Origin: Hypomesus transpacificus
Lineage: Eukaryota > Chordata > Actinopteri > Osmeriformes > Osmeridae
Length of the DNA: 64,000 nucleotides
Assembly: GCF_021917145.1 (NCBI RefSeq)
Contig: NC_061081.1
Span: forward strand, 1,966,562 to 2,030,561
Direction of reading: 5' to 3'
This document shows, one piece after another, positions 43,441-50,601 of this stretch (position 1 is the stretch's first letter; every line of letters starts with the position of its first letter). A program made the translations under genes and the position numbers. The notes beneath the pieces were generated by a model. The model saw nothing but the letters and a program-made list of their open reading frames with translations. It was not told the origin of the DNA and ran no database searches.

Positions 43441-44376
<936 letters not shown>

Positions 44377-44966: not shown

Positions 44967-47900
44967 TCACTCTGACATCCAGAGTTTGAAGGTGCGGTCA
45001 TAGGAGCAGGTGGCTATGAGTTGTCCGTCAGGTGACATGTCCACGCCCATCACCTTGCCCTCATGCCCTGCTAGCGTCTTCAGTGGCGACCAGCCAGGGT
45101 GGGTCCACACTTTGGCTGTGTTGTCATAGGCTCCCGACACCAGGAAGTGACCGTCGGTCGCTGGATAACAGGGACGGCATGAGAGGGAAGACAGGGTGAG
45201 TATGGATAAGAGAGAGAACACAACCTGGTTCTTTCCAGAACCATCGTTCTTGAGAACCTTGCCACATCCTGACAATAAACAGCTCTTCAGTTTGTAAATA
45301 AAAAAGCCCACAATATGAAACTGACAATAAGTGTTTCTGTGGACAGACCCAACAGTAGCTCTAAAACGGTCGCATAGAGATAGTTGTTGCATCTGCCTCA
45401 GTTACTTTAGGAGGTTATAACCAGTTATAACAGCACATTTTGAAGCTGTTAAACCTTCTCAGTCCTCCTACTGCCCCAATGCACCACATCCCCAACAAGC
45501 AACCAAGAACCCAGAGAGAGAAACACTGGGAGGAGAGAGAAAGAGAGGGATCATCTCAAACTAGATCGAGAAGCTAGCAGAGGAGAGAGGACTCACGCTG
45601 GAAGCAGACCGAGGACACCAGGTTCTGGTGGGCAGGGATGGTGTAGATGCACCTCCTCCTCCGCAGGTCCCACACTTTGACCGTGTTGTCTCCACTGCCC
45701 GTCGCCACATTGAACCTGAAAACAAGAGAAGAAACAGCCTCAGCCATCACACGTGTACCCGGGTCGCTGCGCCTCCAAACGAAACCTGATCATTGAGCGT
45801 CAACGAGCGCCCGTGTGACATTTCCAGCGTATTCCGTCATGGCGTACCCGTTGGGGGAGAAGTTAATGCTGTAGATCTCTTTGAGGTGACCCTCCAGGAA
45901 CATGACACAGCGACCTGTCCTCAAGTCCCAGATCCTCCCAAAAGAATCCAGACCCCTAAGAGAAAGAAGAAGCCAGAAAAGCGAGATGAGGGAGTGTATT
46001 CGACTGCAAACTGAGCCGTGCGTATGCGACCAGTCCCCAACGCGGCGCACGGCCAGGGGAGGCGGGCGCGGCCCGGTCTTACCCCGTCCCGGCCAGGGAG
46101 CCGTCGGGGTGGAAGTGCAGGTCGTGGACTCCTTTGCTGTGGCCCTCCTGGTGCAAGATCTCCTCCTGAGCCTCCAGGTCCCACAGACGCCACGAGTCGT
46201 CATAGCTTCAGGGAGGAGAGGACAGAAGAAGGGGGGGGCATTAGGACTTCGGCGTGGTTCTTTGGGAGGATCATAAGGGTGCAGCGGGTGGCGTCTGCGT
46301 TTCGCCCACCAGGTGGTCCCGAGGAAGCGTCCGGAAGGATGCCAGGTTACTCTCGCCACCCGCGCCGAGTGGCCCTCGATGTCAGCCACAGGCTCGTCGC
46401 TGCCCGGGAGTGGAGAAAAGAGGTTACTATGGTTACGGGGGACACAAAACAAGCCATCTGCTCGCCTCTATCCCAAGTACACAACACTCATTTCTCACAC
46501 ACACACTTTCTCTCACCTAGGCCTGAGTGATAAGGGAGAGAATGAGAACTTCCATACATAGTAAGACAGAGAAAGATATAGAATGATTAAGTGGATAATA
46601 GTGGAAGGGTCCAGGCTGGTATTGAGAACTTGCCACGTCCTGAGCTCAGACGTTCAGAATCAAAACAGCTCTCCAGTTTGTCAATAAAAAGCCAACATGA
46701 AGTCAATAACTGTTTCTGTGGACAGACCCAACAGTAGCTCTAAAACGGTCGCATAGAGATAGTTGTTGCATCCGCCTCAATTTCTTTAGGAGGTTATAAC
46801 CAGTTATAACAGCACATTTTGAAGCTGTTGAACCTTCTCAGTCCTCCTACGGCCCCAATGCACCATATCCCCAACAAGCAACCAAGAACCCGGAGAGAGA
46901 ACCTCAAAGTGGAGAGAGGGAGTGGTACCTGTCCAGGCTCCACAGCTTGACAGAGCCGTCGACAGCACAAGACACCATGTTGACGTCAGAGTCCTCCAGG
47001 GACAGGGTGGCCTGGGGGTGGAAGCTGATGGCCCCAACGTTAGTGCTGTGGCCTGGGAGAGACGGCGCCACCACACACAGGAACACAACAGGAGGAGTTG
47101 AAACAGACGCTACCATCACAACCGACAATCTCAGATCTCAAAAAGGTAATCTAATCAATACGAACGCGAATATCTCCTAACTCACTCGCCAGCCAGGGAA
47201 AGGGCGTCGGGGGAGGTATATGGAAGGTTGGAACTGTTCTGTAACTTGGTTCTTACCTCTGAGTGTTCTCACCAAGGTGCAGTCTGGGATGGACCACAGC
47301 TTACACAGGCCACTCCTGAGGAAGGACACGGGAGAGACAGGCTTGGGGTCAGGACACAACAGGGAGATGTTTATTGAAGTCAACGTATGTCAAGTTCTCG
47401 GATCAGTATTCCGTATGCACAAGCGGTTCCATTACGGCTCACCAGGATGCCGTCACCAGCATCTTAGAGTTGGGGCTGAACTGGCAGAAAGATATAGGTC
47501 TGTCATCACCAATCTGGCTGCAGAAATTATTCAGGTTCTGAGCAGAGAGAAGGATGAGAGGGAGACAATCAGAAACAGAGGAAAACAGGATTAGATTGAA
47601 GAGGAGAAATCCTCTTCATGTTCTCTCAACCTGACTTGAATACATGGTGTTGGATGGAGAACCTACTCTCAGGTTCTTGTGCAGTTCCTGTTGCTTGACT
47701 GTTCGTGTGGATTCAGGGATCTCCTTGTGAGCTCGGGCAGCCTCTAACCTCTTCATAGCCCTGTACACACAAACCTGAGTAATCCACAAAGCTGCTGGTT
47801 TTCAACAATCAACAGAACCAGCAATCGTGTCAGCAGCACTGCAGCCACCAATTGGACAATCCAACAGTCAATCGCAATGTAGCTACCTAGGCAGAGAGTA

Positions 47901-48752
47901 TTTGGCCAACCAGAGCCTGGCTTCCTTCAGAGTGTTCGGCCCCTCGTGGTACCACGTTTCCTGACGCTGAGAATAAAAAACAAAATGGTGAGTCGGTGGT
48001 CAACCTTATTGATAATACCTGTATGCATACGGATGAAAACAGGAGGCCCCAAGACTGCAACAATAATATCAACAGTTGGATAGAGGAGACTGGACCCTAC
48101 CTCTTCTTGAGAGCGTTTGGATTTGTCATCGTCTTTCTTTGATTTCTTCAGTGCATCTGGCCCGACTACTGAAAGAATATTCCTCAACCTGAAGATGAGA
48201 CAGAGAGGAGTGGGTCATCAAGCAGCTGATATATGCTGACGTTAGGGTCTAAGACTGAGGAGAAGTCCGTGACATTTACCTCTCTCTCCTCTCTGCCGGT
48301 CCTTCTCCAAAGATTATGATGGGCTCACCGAGAGCCCGCAGACAGGCTTTGACCTCGGCATCGTCCGTTGACACGGTGATCTGTCTGGCTCTCCTCCTGC
48401 GTTCAAACTCTGCTAGCACCTCCGACTGTCGCTCACTGACACGCTCCTCCAAGTCCATAGACTCACCTGTGAAAGATACAAGAAGGTGAAAGACACAATA
48501 AATAAAAGTCAGACATCACAACTGCATTAGAATGTTAAAACATGAAAAATGAATCAGGTAGACTATGAACACTATTAGAATGTTACGCTTACCGCTTGAG
48601 ATATTGATGTTGCCAGCTGCGATGCCAGCCTTGACGCCATCTTTCAGTTTCCCCGTGGTTTCCCTGCTTAACCGCTCTCTCTCCTTCTCCTCGAGACTGC
48701 CATAGAAGATCCGCGACTTCTTTACCAATGGGCCTTCGTCTTCGTCCGACAT
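44967..48752 (-). CDS. prpf4: U4/U6 small nuclear ribonucleoprotein Prp4
   Basis: Thirteen coding exons: 48752-48593, 48466-48280, 48188-48101, 47966-47887, 47760-47667, 47537-47443, 47315-47257, 47052-46929, 46399-46310, 46205-46083, 45955-45848, 45715-45597 and 45160-44967. Phases agree and give 506 residues (human about 522). The N-terminal part ([58 protein letters not shown]) is the splicing-factor motif that contacts the U4/U6 partners. The rest forms seven WD40 repeats, e.g. [36 protein letters not shown] and FKLWMSE. It acts in the U4/U6.U5 tri-snRNP. The start MSDEDEGPL is chosen because the upstream ATG at 49,136 reads out of frame. Two introns contain matching RNA-like blocks. Confidence 0.95.
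45335..45468 (-). ncRNA. Candidate H/ACA small nucleolar RNA, copy A, in the last prpf4 intron
   Basis: Read on the minus strand (prpf4 sense), 134 nt fold by eye as two hairpins. The 5' hairpin has lower stem GGAGG/CCUCC and upper stem AACAGC/GCUGUU. A hinge box AAAGUA (ANANNA, at 45,408-45,403) follows one base later. The 3' hairpin has lower stem GGCAGA/UCUGUC, a pocket, and upper stem UAUCUCUA/UAGAGCUA with one mismatch. The end is ACA followed by exactly three bases (GAA), and the upper stem to ACA spacing is 15 nt, within the family's 14-16. The 5' hairpin spacing (17-20 nt) is less ideal. No UGAG loop box is seen, so a nucleolar rather than Cajal-body RNA is more likely. Target and family name are unknown. 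Confidence 0.6.
46714..46847 (-). ncRNA. Candidate H/ACA small nucleolar RNA, copy B, in another prpf4 intron
   Basis: This is a second copy in the intron between the exons ending 46,929 and starting 46,399. It differs from copy A at four of 134 positions. One changes a free base of the hinge box (AAAGAA), one lies in the linker, one in a pocket strand, and one turns an A-U stem pair into G-U (GGCGGA/UCUGUC). No stem or box is lost. Identity falls off sharply just past the ACA end, but continues about 45 bp beyond the predicted 5' end. Confidence 0.6.
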
Positions 48753-50087: not shown

Positions 50088-50601
50088 ATGCTTCGCAGGA
50101 AGCCCACTCGCCTGGAGCTGAAGCTGGATGACACGGAGGAGTTTGAGAGTGTAAAGAAAGAGCTGGAGGTAGCCGAAGTAGTTGGCAAGCTACACGTCCT
50201 TACTTATGTTATTGAACCAATGTCTGGGTGCATAGATGTATTCTGTACCGCCACATCTATCAACTCAATGATAAATTACACACTCACGCCTGACTATTTT
50301 TGTACATATGCCGTAATAGATGACATGCAAAATGACATATATTGGAGTCTAATGCTACACGTGTCCAAATGAGTACATGTCTCATGTTTTCTATGTGCTG
50401 ATTTTATCTGTCTCCCAGAGCCGAAAAAAACAAAAAGACGAAGTAGATGTTGTCGGTGTTGCTACGTCCAGCGAGATGGCAGGAGCAACGGGCGGAGGGG
50501 ACATAAAGTCAAGGGAGCAGATGATTCATGAACGCATCGGCTATAAACCCCACCCAAAACCCAACACCTTGCCGTCTCTGTTTGGTAACCTGCAGTTTTA
50601 G
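50088..50601 (+). CDS. cdc26: Anaphase-promoting complex subunit CDC26
   Basis: Exons 50088-50168 and 50419-50601 give 87 residues (human 85). [20 protein letters not shown] is nearly identical to the human N-terminus; this segment threads into the TPR groove of APC6/CDC16 and stabilises it. [12 protein letters not shown] and [18 protein letters not shown] follow. The intron joins GAG|gtagcc to cccag|AGCCGA in phase 0. The protein is a small structural part of the APC/C ubiquitin ligase in the nucleus and has no enzyme activity of its own. Confidence 0.95.

Follow-up and report, generated by a model that had tools for sequence, protein, structure and literature searches.

The prpf4 locus and its two longest introns

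We have analyzed a stretch of 64 kb from the genome of the fish Hypomesus transpacificus (assembly GCF_021917145.1, contig NC_061081.1, positions 1,966,562 to 2,030,561), hereafter the window, in whose numbering all coordinates are given. The minus strand carries prpf4, which codes for a protein of the U4/U6 snRNP. Its coding region was reconstructed by joining 13 exons across GT-AG introns, the start at MSDEDEG being provisional (Table 1). When the resulting protein was compared by phmmer with human hPrp4 (3jcr_L) the score was 972.5 bits (E 3.4e-292), and the alignment was near full-length, with residues 4–506 of the query against 18–521 of the chain. Introns 8 and 12 each contain a block of 134 nt, designated here copy B and copy A, respectively. 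Of the 12 introns mapped these two are the longest, with the remaining ten between 91 and 204 nt, so that much of their additional length is taken up by the blocks they contain. Both blocks lie on the same strand as prpf4, as an earlier sequence-only reading of this DNA had described. Judged from their location in the sequence they are intronic and sense to the host, as is the norm for vertebrate H/ACA snoRNAs.

Table 1. Positions in the window of the prpf4 coding region, the two snoRNA-containing introns, the two SNORA47 copies with their motifs and the duplicated blocks around them.
Feature	Positions	Strand	Description
prpf4 coding region, reconstructed	44967..48752	-	13 exons, 506 aa plus stop; U4/U6 snRNP protein Prp4
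prpf4 intron 12	45161..45596	-	436 nt, GT-AG; copy A lies 128 nt from the 5' splice site and 174 nt from the 3' splice site
prpf4 intron 8	46400..46928	-	529 nt, GT-AG; copy B lies 81 nt from the 5' splice site and 314 nt from the 3' splice site
SNORA47 copy A	45335..45468	-	134 nt H/ACA snoRNA gene, prpf4 intron 12
SNORA47 copy B	46714..46847	-	134 nt H/ACA snoRNA gene, prpf4 intron 8
H box AAAGUA, copy A	45403..45408	-	RNA position 61; fits ANANNA
H box AAAGAA, copy B	46782..46787	-	differs from copy A just at a free N position
ACA box, copy A	45338..45340	-	RNA position 129; tail ACAGAA; three bases from the 3' end
ACA box, copy B	46717..46719	-	three bases from the 3' end
5' guide pocket, left arm, copy A	45456..45463	-	ACUGAGAA; left open by the minimum-energy fold; no difference from the Rfam consensus
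5' guide pocket, right arm, copy A	45415..45422	-	GGUUAUAA; begins 14 nt before the H box
5' guide pocket, left arm, copy B	46835..46842	-	ACUGAGAA; same as copy A
5' guide pocket, right arm, copy B	46794..46801	-	GGUUAUAA; same as copy A
Duplicated intronic block around copy A	45277..45539	-	blastn partner 46663-46918
Duplicated intronic block around copy B	46663..46918	-	blastn partner 45277-45539

Within the coding region itself, two stretches of 21 bp, located at 45105-45125 (exon 13) and 45670-45690 (exon 12), are 90% alike. Going by its position, this repeat encodes the repeated WD40 motif DNTxKVW.

Assignment of both blocks to the SNORA47 family

A covariance scan with Rfam matched both blocks to SNORA47 (HBI-115; RF01234) over the full length of the model (positions 1–138 of 138). 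Copy A was matched at 45334-45469 (minus) with 69.8 bits and an E value of 1.9e-12, and copy B at 46713-46848 (minus) with 64.7 bits and an E value of 3.8e-11. The gathering score of the family is 45, and copy B exceeds it by 19.7 bits. The sequence-only reading had classed the blocks as H/ACA-type RNA genes in two introns of prpf4, duplicated from one to the other, and had proposed a check with Infernal and the Rfam H/ACA models. Its reading is supported by the full-length family matches, the two-hairpin fold, the H and ACA boxes and the verification of the host gene.

No other match reached the gathering threshold in the 64 kb window. Permissive scans, with 6 matches in the prpf4 region and 9 in the whole window, revealed neither a third copy nor a rival family near threshold, the next-best match in the window scan being to a miRNA family (E 0.0017, 35.9 bits, where the gathering score is 90). 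We set aside, as far under their gathering scores, the weak matches to mir-70, mir-466 (twice), mir-297, SCARNA7, ZEB2_AS1_3 and SMAD5-AS1_2 in the window, and those to mir-3045, mir-184, mir-320 and IRES_Bip in the prpf4 region.

The fish RNAs resemble SNORA47/HBI-115 in matching the whole model, in having both boxes and in being intronic, and the resemblance to the RF01234 consensus is closest in the 5' half, where the left arm of the guide pocket is identical and the right arm starts with the same GGUUA. The 3' hairpin, on the other hand, has diverged from the consensus: in copy A only 32 of the 70 alignment columns of the 3' half match, against 47 of 68 in the 5' half. There is also a difference in the host, since the chicken HBI-115 is listed in intron 1 of the mRNA CR523168 (PMC2653536) whereas in this fish two copies are found in a single host, prpf4. 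A literature search on SNORA47 and PRPF4 together retrieved no paper naming both out of 5.39 million, and in the literature on SNORA47, HBI-115, PRPF4 snoRNAs and teleost snoRNA duplication, which was available mostly as titles and listings, we saw no report of SNORA47 in prpf4. Passages naming SNORA47 in PMC6539089 and PMC12776523 were silent on its target and host, and the human host was looked for in PMC12016144 and not found there.

Box motifs, differences between the copies and fold

Both copies have the layout of a box H/ACA RNA, i.e., a hairpin, the H-box hinge (AAAGUA or AAAGAA), a second hairpin and an ACA followed by three bases. The consensus of the H box is ANANNA. The stems GGAGG/CCUCC and AACAGC/GCUGUU, and the pairing of GGCAGA or GGCGGA with UCUGUC, had been noticed from the letters together with the hinge and the ACA, and all of them are present. 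The alignment likewise agrees with the earlier count of four differences, the copies being identical at 130 of 134 positions and differing at RNA positions 18, 65, 68 and 75. Position 65 is the free position of the H box, position 68 is in the hinge and the change at position 75 turns an A-U pair into G-U. The sequence-only reading had taken this last one for the only change in a stem, and here it needs amending. At position 18 the U of copy A is a C in copy B, and the U18-A41 pair of the upper 5' stem becomes C.A and is broken, a change that was flagged by cmscan too.

A stable fold with two hairpins, on which the sequence-only reading had made its proposal depend, is predicted for the minus strand of both copies. 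For copy A the energy was -43.2 kcal/mol, with a z of -4.02 and none of 200 shuffles as good, and for copy B -38.9 kcal/mol, with a z of -2.71 and 2 of 200 shuffles as good. The corresponding values for the plus strand were -36.1 kcal/mol and z -2.61 (2 of 200 shuffles) in copy A, and -30.7 kcal/mol and z -1.36 (18 of 200) in copy B. As the plus strand of copy A also beats most shuffles, the fold score alone is no strand-specific proof. In the minimum-energy fold of copy A the ACA box is partly paired, through three overlapping bases (CUG with CAG), a pairing that a real particle would have to undo.

The two hairpins differ in how accessible their pockets are. The 5' pocket, of 8+8 nt, has no paired base in the minimum-energy fold of either copy and is open at no energy cost, and the right arm starts exactly 14 nt before the H box, within the distance of about 14–15 nt at which the guide pocket of an H/ACA RNA is located upstream of its box. 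The earlier remark that the spacing of the 5' hairpin was loose has to be reversed, the irregular hairpin being the 3' one. There, the stem ending 15 nt before the ACA that had been pointed out is indeed present, and of the 15 nt preceding the ACA, where a 3' pocket is expected, 12 (copy A) or 13 (copy B) are paired in the fold. The energy needed to open an 8-nt right arm placed 14–16 nt before the ACA is between 8.7 and 13.0 kcal/mol in copy A and between 8.5 and 9.7 kcal/mol in copy B, where the constrained fold loses the hairpin form. In both copies many pairs of the 3' hairpin of the Rfam model are non-standard, and a different but stable 3' hairpin is formed. With its pocket blocked by internal base pairs, and with more divergence from the consensus than is seen in the 5' half, the 3' hairpin would be structural and probably has no guide function.

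Predicted target in 28S rRNA

The RNA to be modified was left unnamed in the sequence-only reading, and published work identifies it as the 28S pseudouridine 1766 (1779 in the newer numbering). Human SNORA47 is listed as the guide of 28S Psi1779 (1766 in older numbering), a base described as touching ribosomal protein uS19 at the inter-subunit bridge B1a; when FUS is absent from HEK293T cells the modification of this position is given as increasing from 0.75 to 0.92, with SNORA47 up too (PMC9941101). For chicken HBI-115 the predicted target is 28S-1699, through a 6+4 nt pairing of its 5' hairpin (PMC2653536), and a study of Entamoeba pairs HBI-115 with human 28S U1766 (PMC3542256).

We compared the 5' pocket of the fish RNAs with the rRNA of a eukaryotic contig with a G+C of 0.37, judged non-vertebrate. 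The scan covered 2970 columns (parts of SSU, 5.8S and LSU, with N spacers) in one orientation, including 849 U. The pocket forms 6+4 Watson-Crick pairs, the same as in chicken HBI-115, at UCCUCAACC[U]AUUCUCAAAC, i.e., CUCAACC[U]AUUCUCA. Among the 849 it was the only U for which each arm formed 3 or more Watson-Crick pairs, although the contig had been fetched with a motif covering the site, so that the presence of the motif there is not independent and the site was not found blind. When G-U pairs were allowed four sites passed, the other three with totals of 7, 6 and 6 pairs. Out of 2000 shuffled 5' pockets, 5 reached 10 pairs anywhere in the contig. The same rRNA was scanned with the 3' pocket in 30 registers, recording totals of at least 9 pairs, and no target stood out, the best being 9 pairs (3+6) in the register 16 nt from the ACA.

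We take the CUCAACC[U]AUUCUCA stretch to be the one around human 28S 1766. A further U lies 13 nt downstream, in agreement with the next site, 1779 in the older numbering, of the Entamoeba table (PMC3542256). The match indicates that such a stretch exists in a eukaryotic 28S. Of the 10 paired positions, 2 have other letters in the eukaryote-wide LSU consensus of Rfam (cucgaCCuaUUgUCA, lower case), so its exact sequence is not shared by all eukaryotes. The core of the site, ACCTATTCTCAAACTTTAAATGG, is also contained in a primer given for insect 28S (PMC3691250). In the fish, the 28S stretch predicted to hold the target U is CUCAACCUAUUCUCA.

A search of viral contigs with the 28S motif gave no match. 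Further such searches, with other 28S motifs, gave one locus with such a motif, and along its full length, read in one orientation (1377 U), there was no U at which each arm of the 5' pocket formed 3 or more Watson-Crick pairs. Plasmids searched with part of the rRNA contig gave no match either. The rRNA contig itself, the one match obtained from genome contigs, is JAESUE010000410.1, from the record of a Pseudomonadales MAG, in which Rfam identifies SSU, 5.8S and LSU rRNA. The presence of a eukaryotic rRNA operon in this MAG is apparently contamination.

Duplication between introns and alternative readings

The similarity between the two introns extends beyond the RNAs. The duplicated block has 90.5% identity over 263 columns by blastn, in agreement with a repeat search, and the copies are spaced 1379 bp start to start. 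Upstream of the RNA 5' end 42 of 45 positions are identical, as the sequence-only reading had observed. The divergence that it had described just past the ACA is real, but calling it clear was too strong, as it is modest at first (9 of 12 aligned positions matching and 3 gaps in the first 15 columns; 43 of 53 and 7 gaps in the first 60), with the similarity fading later (22 of 59 and 1 gap in the next 60). The corrections to observed details made here and above do not change the interpretation. With a flank almost as alike as the RNA itself, the likeness of the copies is by itself no evidence of selection, the evidence being the match to the family.

This flank similarity would also suit a different situation, in which only one copy works and copy B, in intron 8, is a young pseudogene that still resembles copy A through recent duplication or gene conversion. 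Copy B does have the broken U-A pair, the weaker fold and the lower Rfam score. Nevertheless, both arms of its guide pocket, its H box motif, its ACA box and its lower 5' stem are intact, its remaining three differences fall on a pair that becomes G-U, on the free position of the H box and on the hinge, and it is still well over the gathering score of the family. A pseudogene in intron 8 is on balance unlikely.

It is much harder to believe that the RNA, although made, works mainly outside rRNA modification, for example in splicing of the host gene or in signalling. The half that is best kept with respect to the family consensus is precisely the one carrying the guide pocket with the known 28S pairing. 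The idea comes from papers that link human SNORA47 to tumour phenotypes, one of which (PMC12016144) mentions neither pseudouridyl- nor 28S in its text. Least credible is a dispersed repeat or snoRNA-derived retroposon that landed twice in prpf4, as two near-identical copies in different introns might suggest, since a blastn comparison of each 311-bp block with the 64 kb window recovers the other block and otherwise only pieces of 16–24 bp, and the homology extends to both sides of the mature RNA.

No A-tail was seen after the ACA end, and together with the homology on both sides this indicates that a segment of DNA was copied, not an RNA. Such copying between introns fits the intragenic duplication proposed in chicken as the principal way in which novel snoRNAs have multiplied (PMC2653536), and snoRNA genes are described as occupying different introns or hosts in different vertebrates (PMC3349704). 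The prpf4 pair is one more instance of cis-duplicated snoRNA paralogs within one host, with no difference in kind.

We conclude, with a probability of roughly 0.93, that both blocks are SNORA47 genes copied from intron to intron in prpf4 and with a 5' pocket aimed at 28S 1766 (1779), their expression and the modification in the fish being predictions from sequence. The basis is the family match, the host gene, the introns, the fold and the complementarity of the pocket to a eukaryotic 28S. Intronic H/ACA RNAs are released by splicing, trimmed by exonucleases and protected by the dyskerin complex, accumulating as RNAs of 130–140 nt with dyskerin, NHP2, NOP10 and GAR1. In the mechanism that we propose, a DNA segment of about 263 bp carrying SNORA47 would have been copied between two introns of prpf4, and each RNA, made as part of the prpf4 pre-mRNA, would be released, trimmed and protected in this manner. 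Its open 5' pocket (ACUGAGAA and GGUUAUAA) would pair with the 28S around the CUCAACC and AUUCUCA arms of the site, offering the central U for conversion to pseudouridine. More speculatively, and with rather low odds in our opinion, the doubling of SNORA47 in a core splicing gene might tie the dose of a single pseudouridine of the B1a bridge to the output of prpf4, and the two copies may differ in stability or efficiency.

Significance and neighbouring genes

The analysis gives an identity and a probable target to a pair of intronic RNAs that had previously only been classed. It adds a further example of a snoRNA copied from intron to intron within a gene, and is otherwise routine annotation. 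The SNORA47 family and its target being already known, any novelty is limited to the pair of copies and their host in this fish, and automatic annotation may well list both copies already.

Two reading frames lie in the vicinity of prpf4. The one at 50088-50168 (plus) looks to us like cdc26 and is on the strand opposite to prpf4, in a head-to-head arrangement with it. This suggests a promoter region shared by prpf4 and the cdc26-like frame, between about 48.8 and 50.1 kb. Downstream of prpf4, also on the other strand, the open frame at 43441-43962 (plus) codes near its end for a RING-type zinc finger (Pfam PF13445, E 3e-07), and is perhaps an RNF183-like gene.
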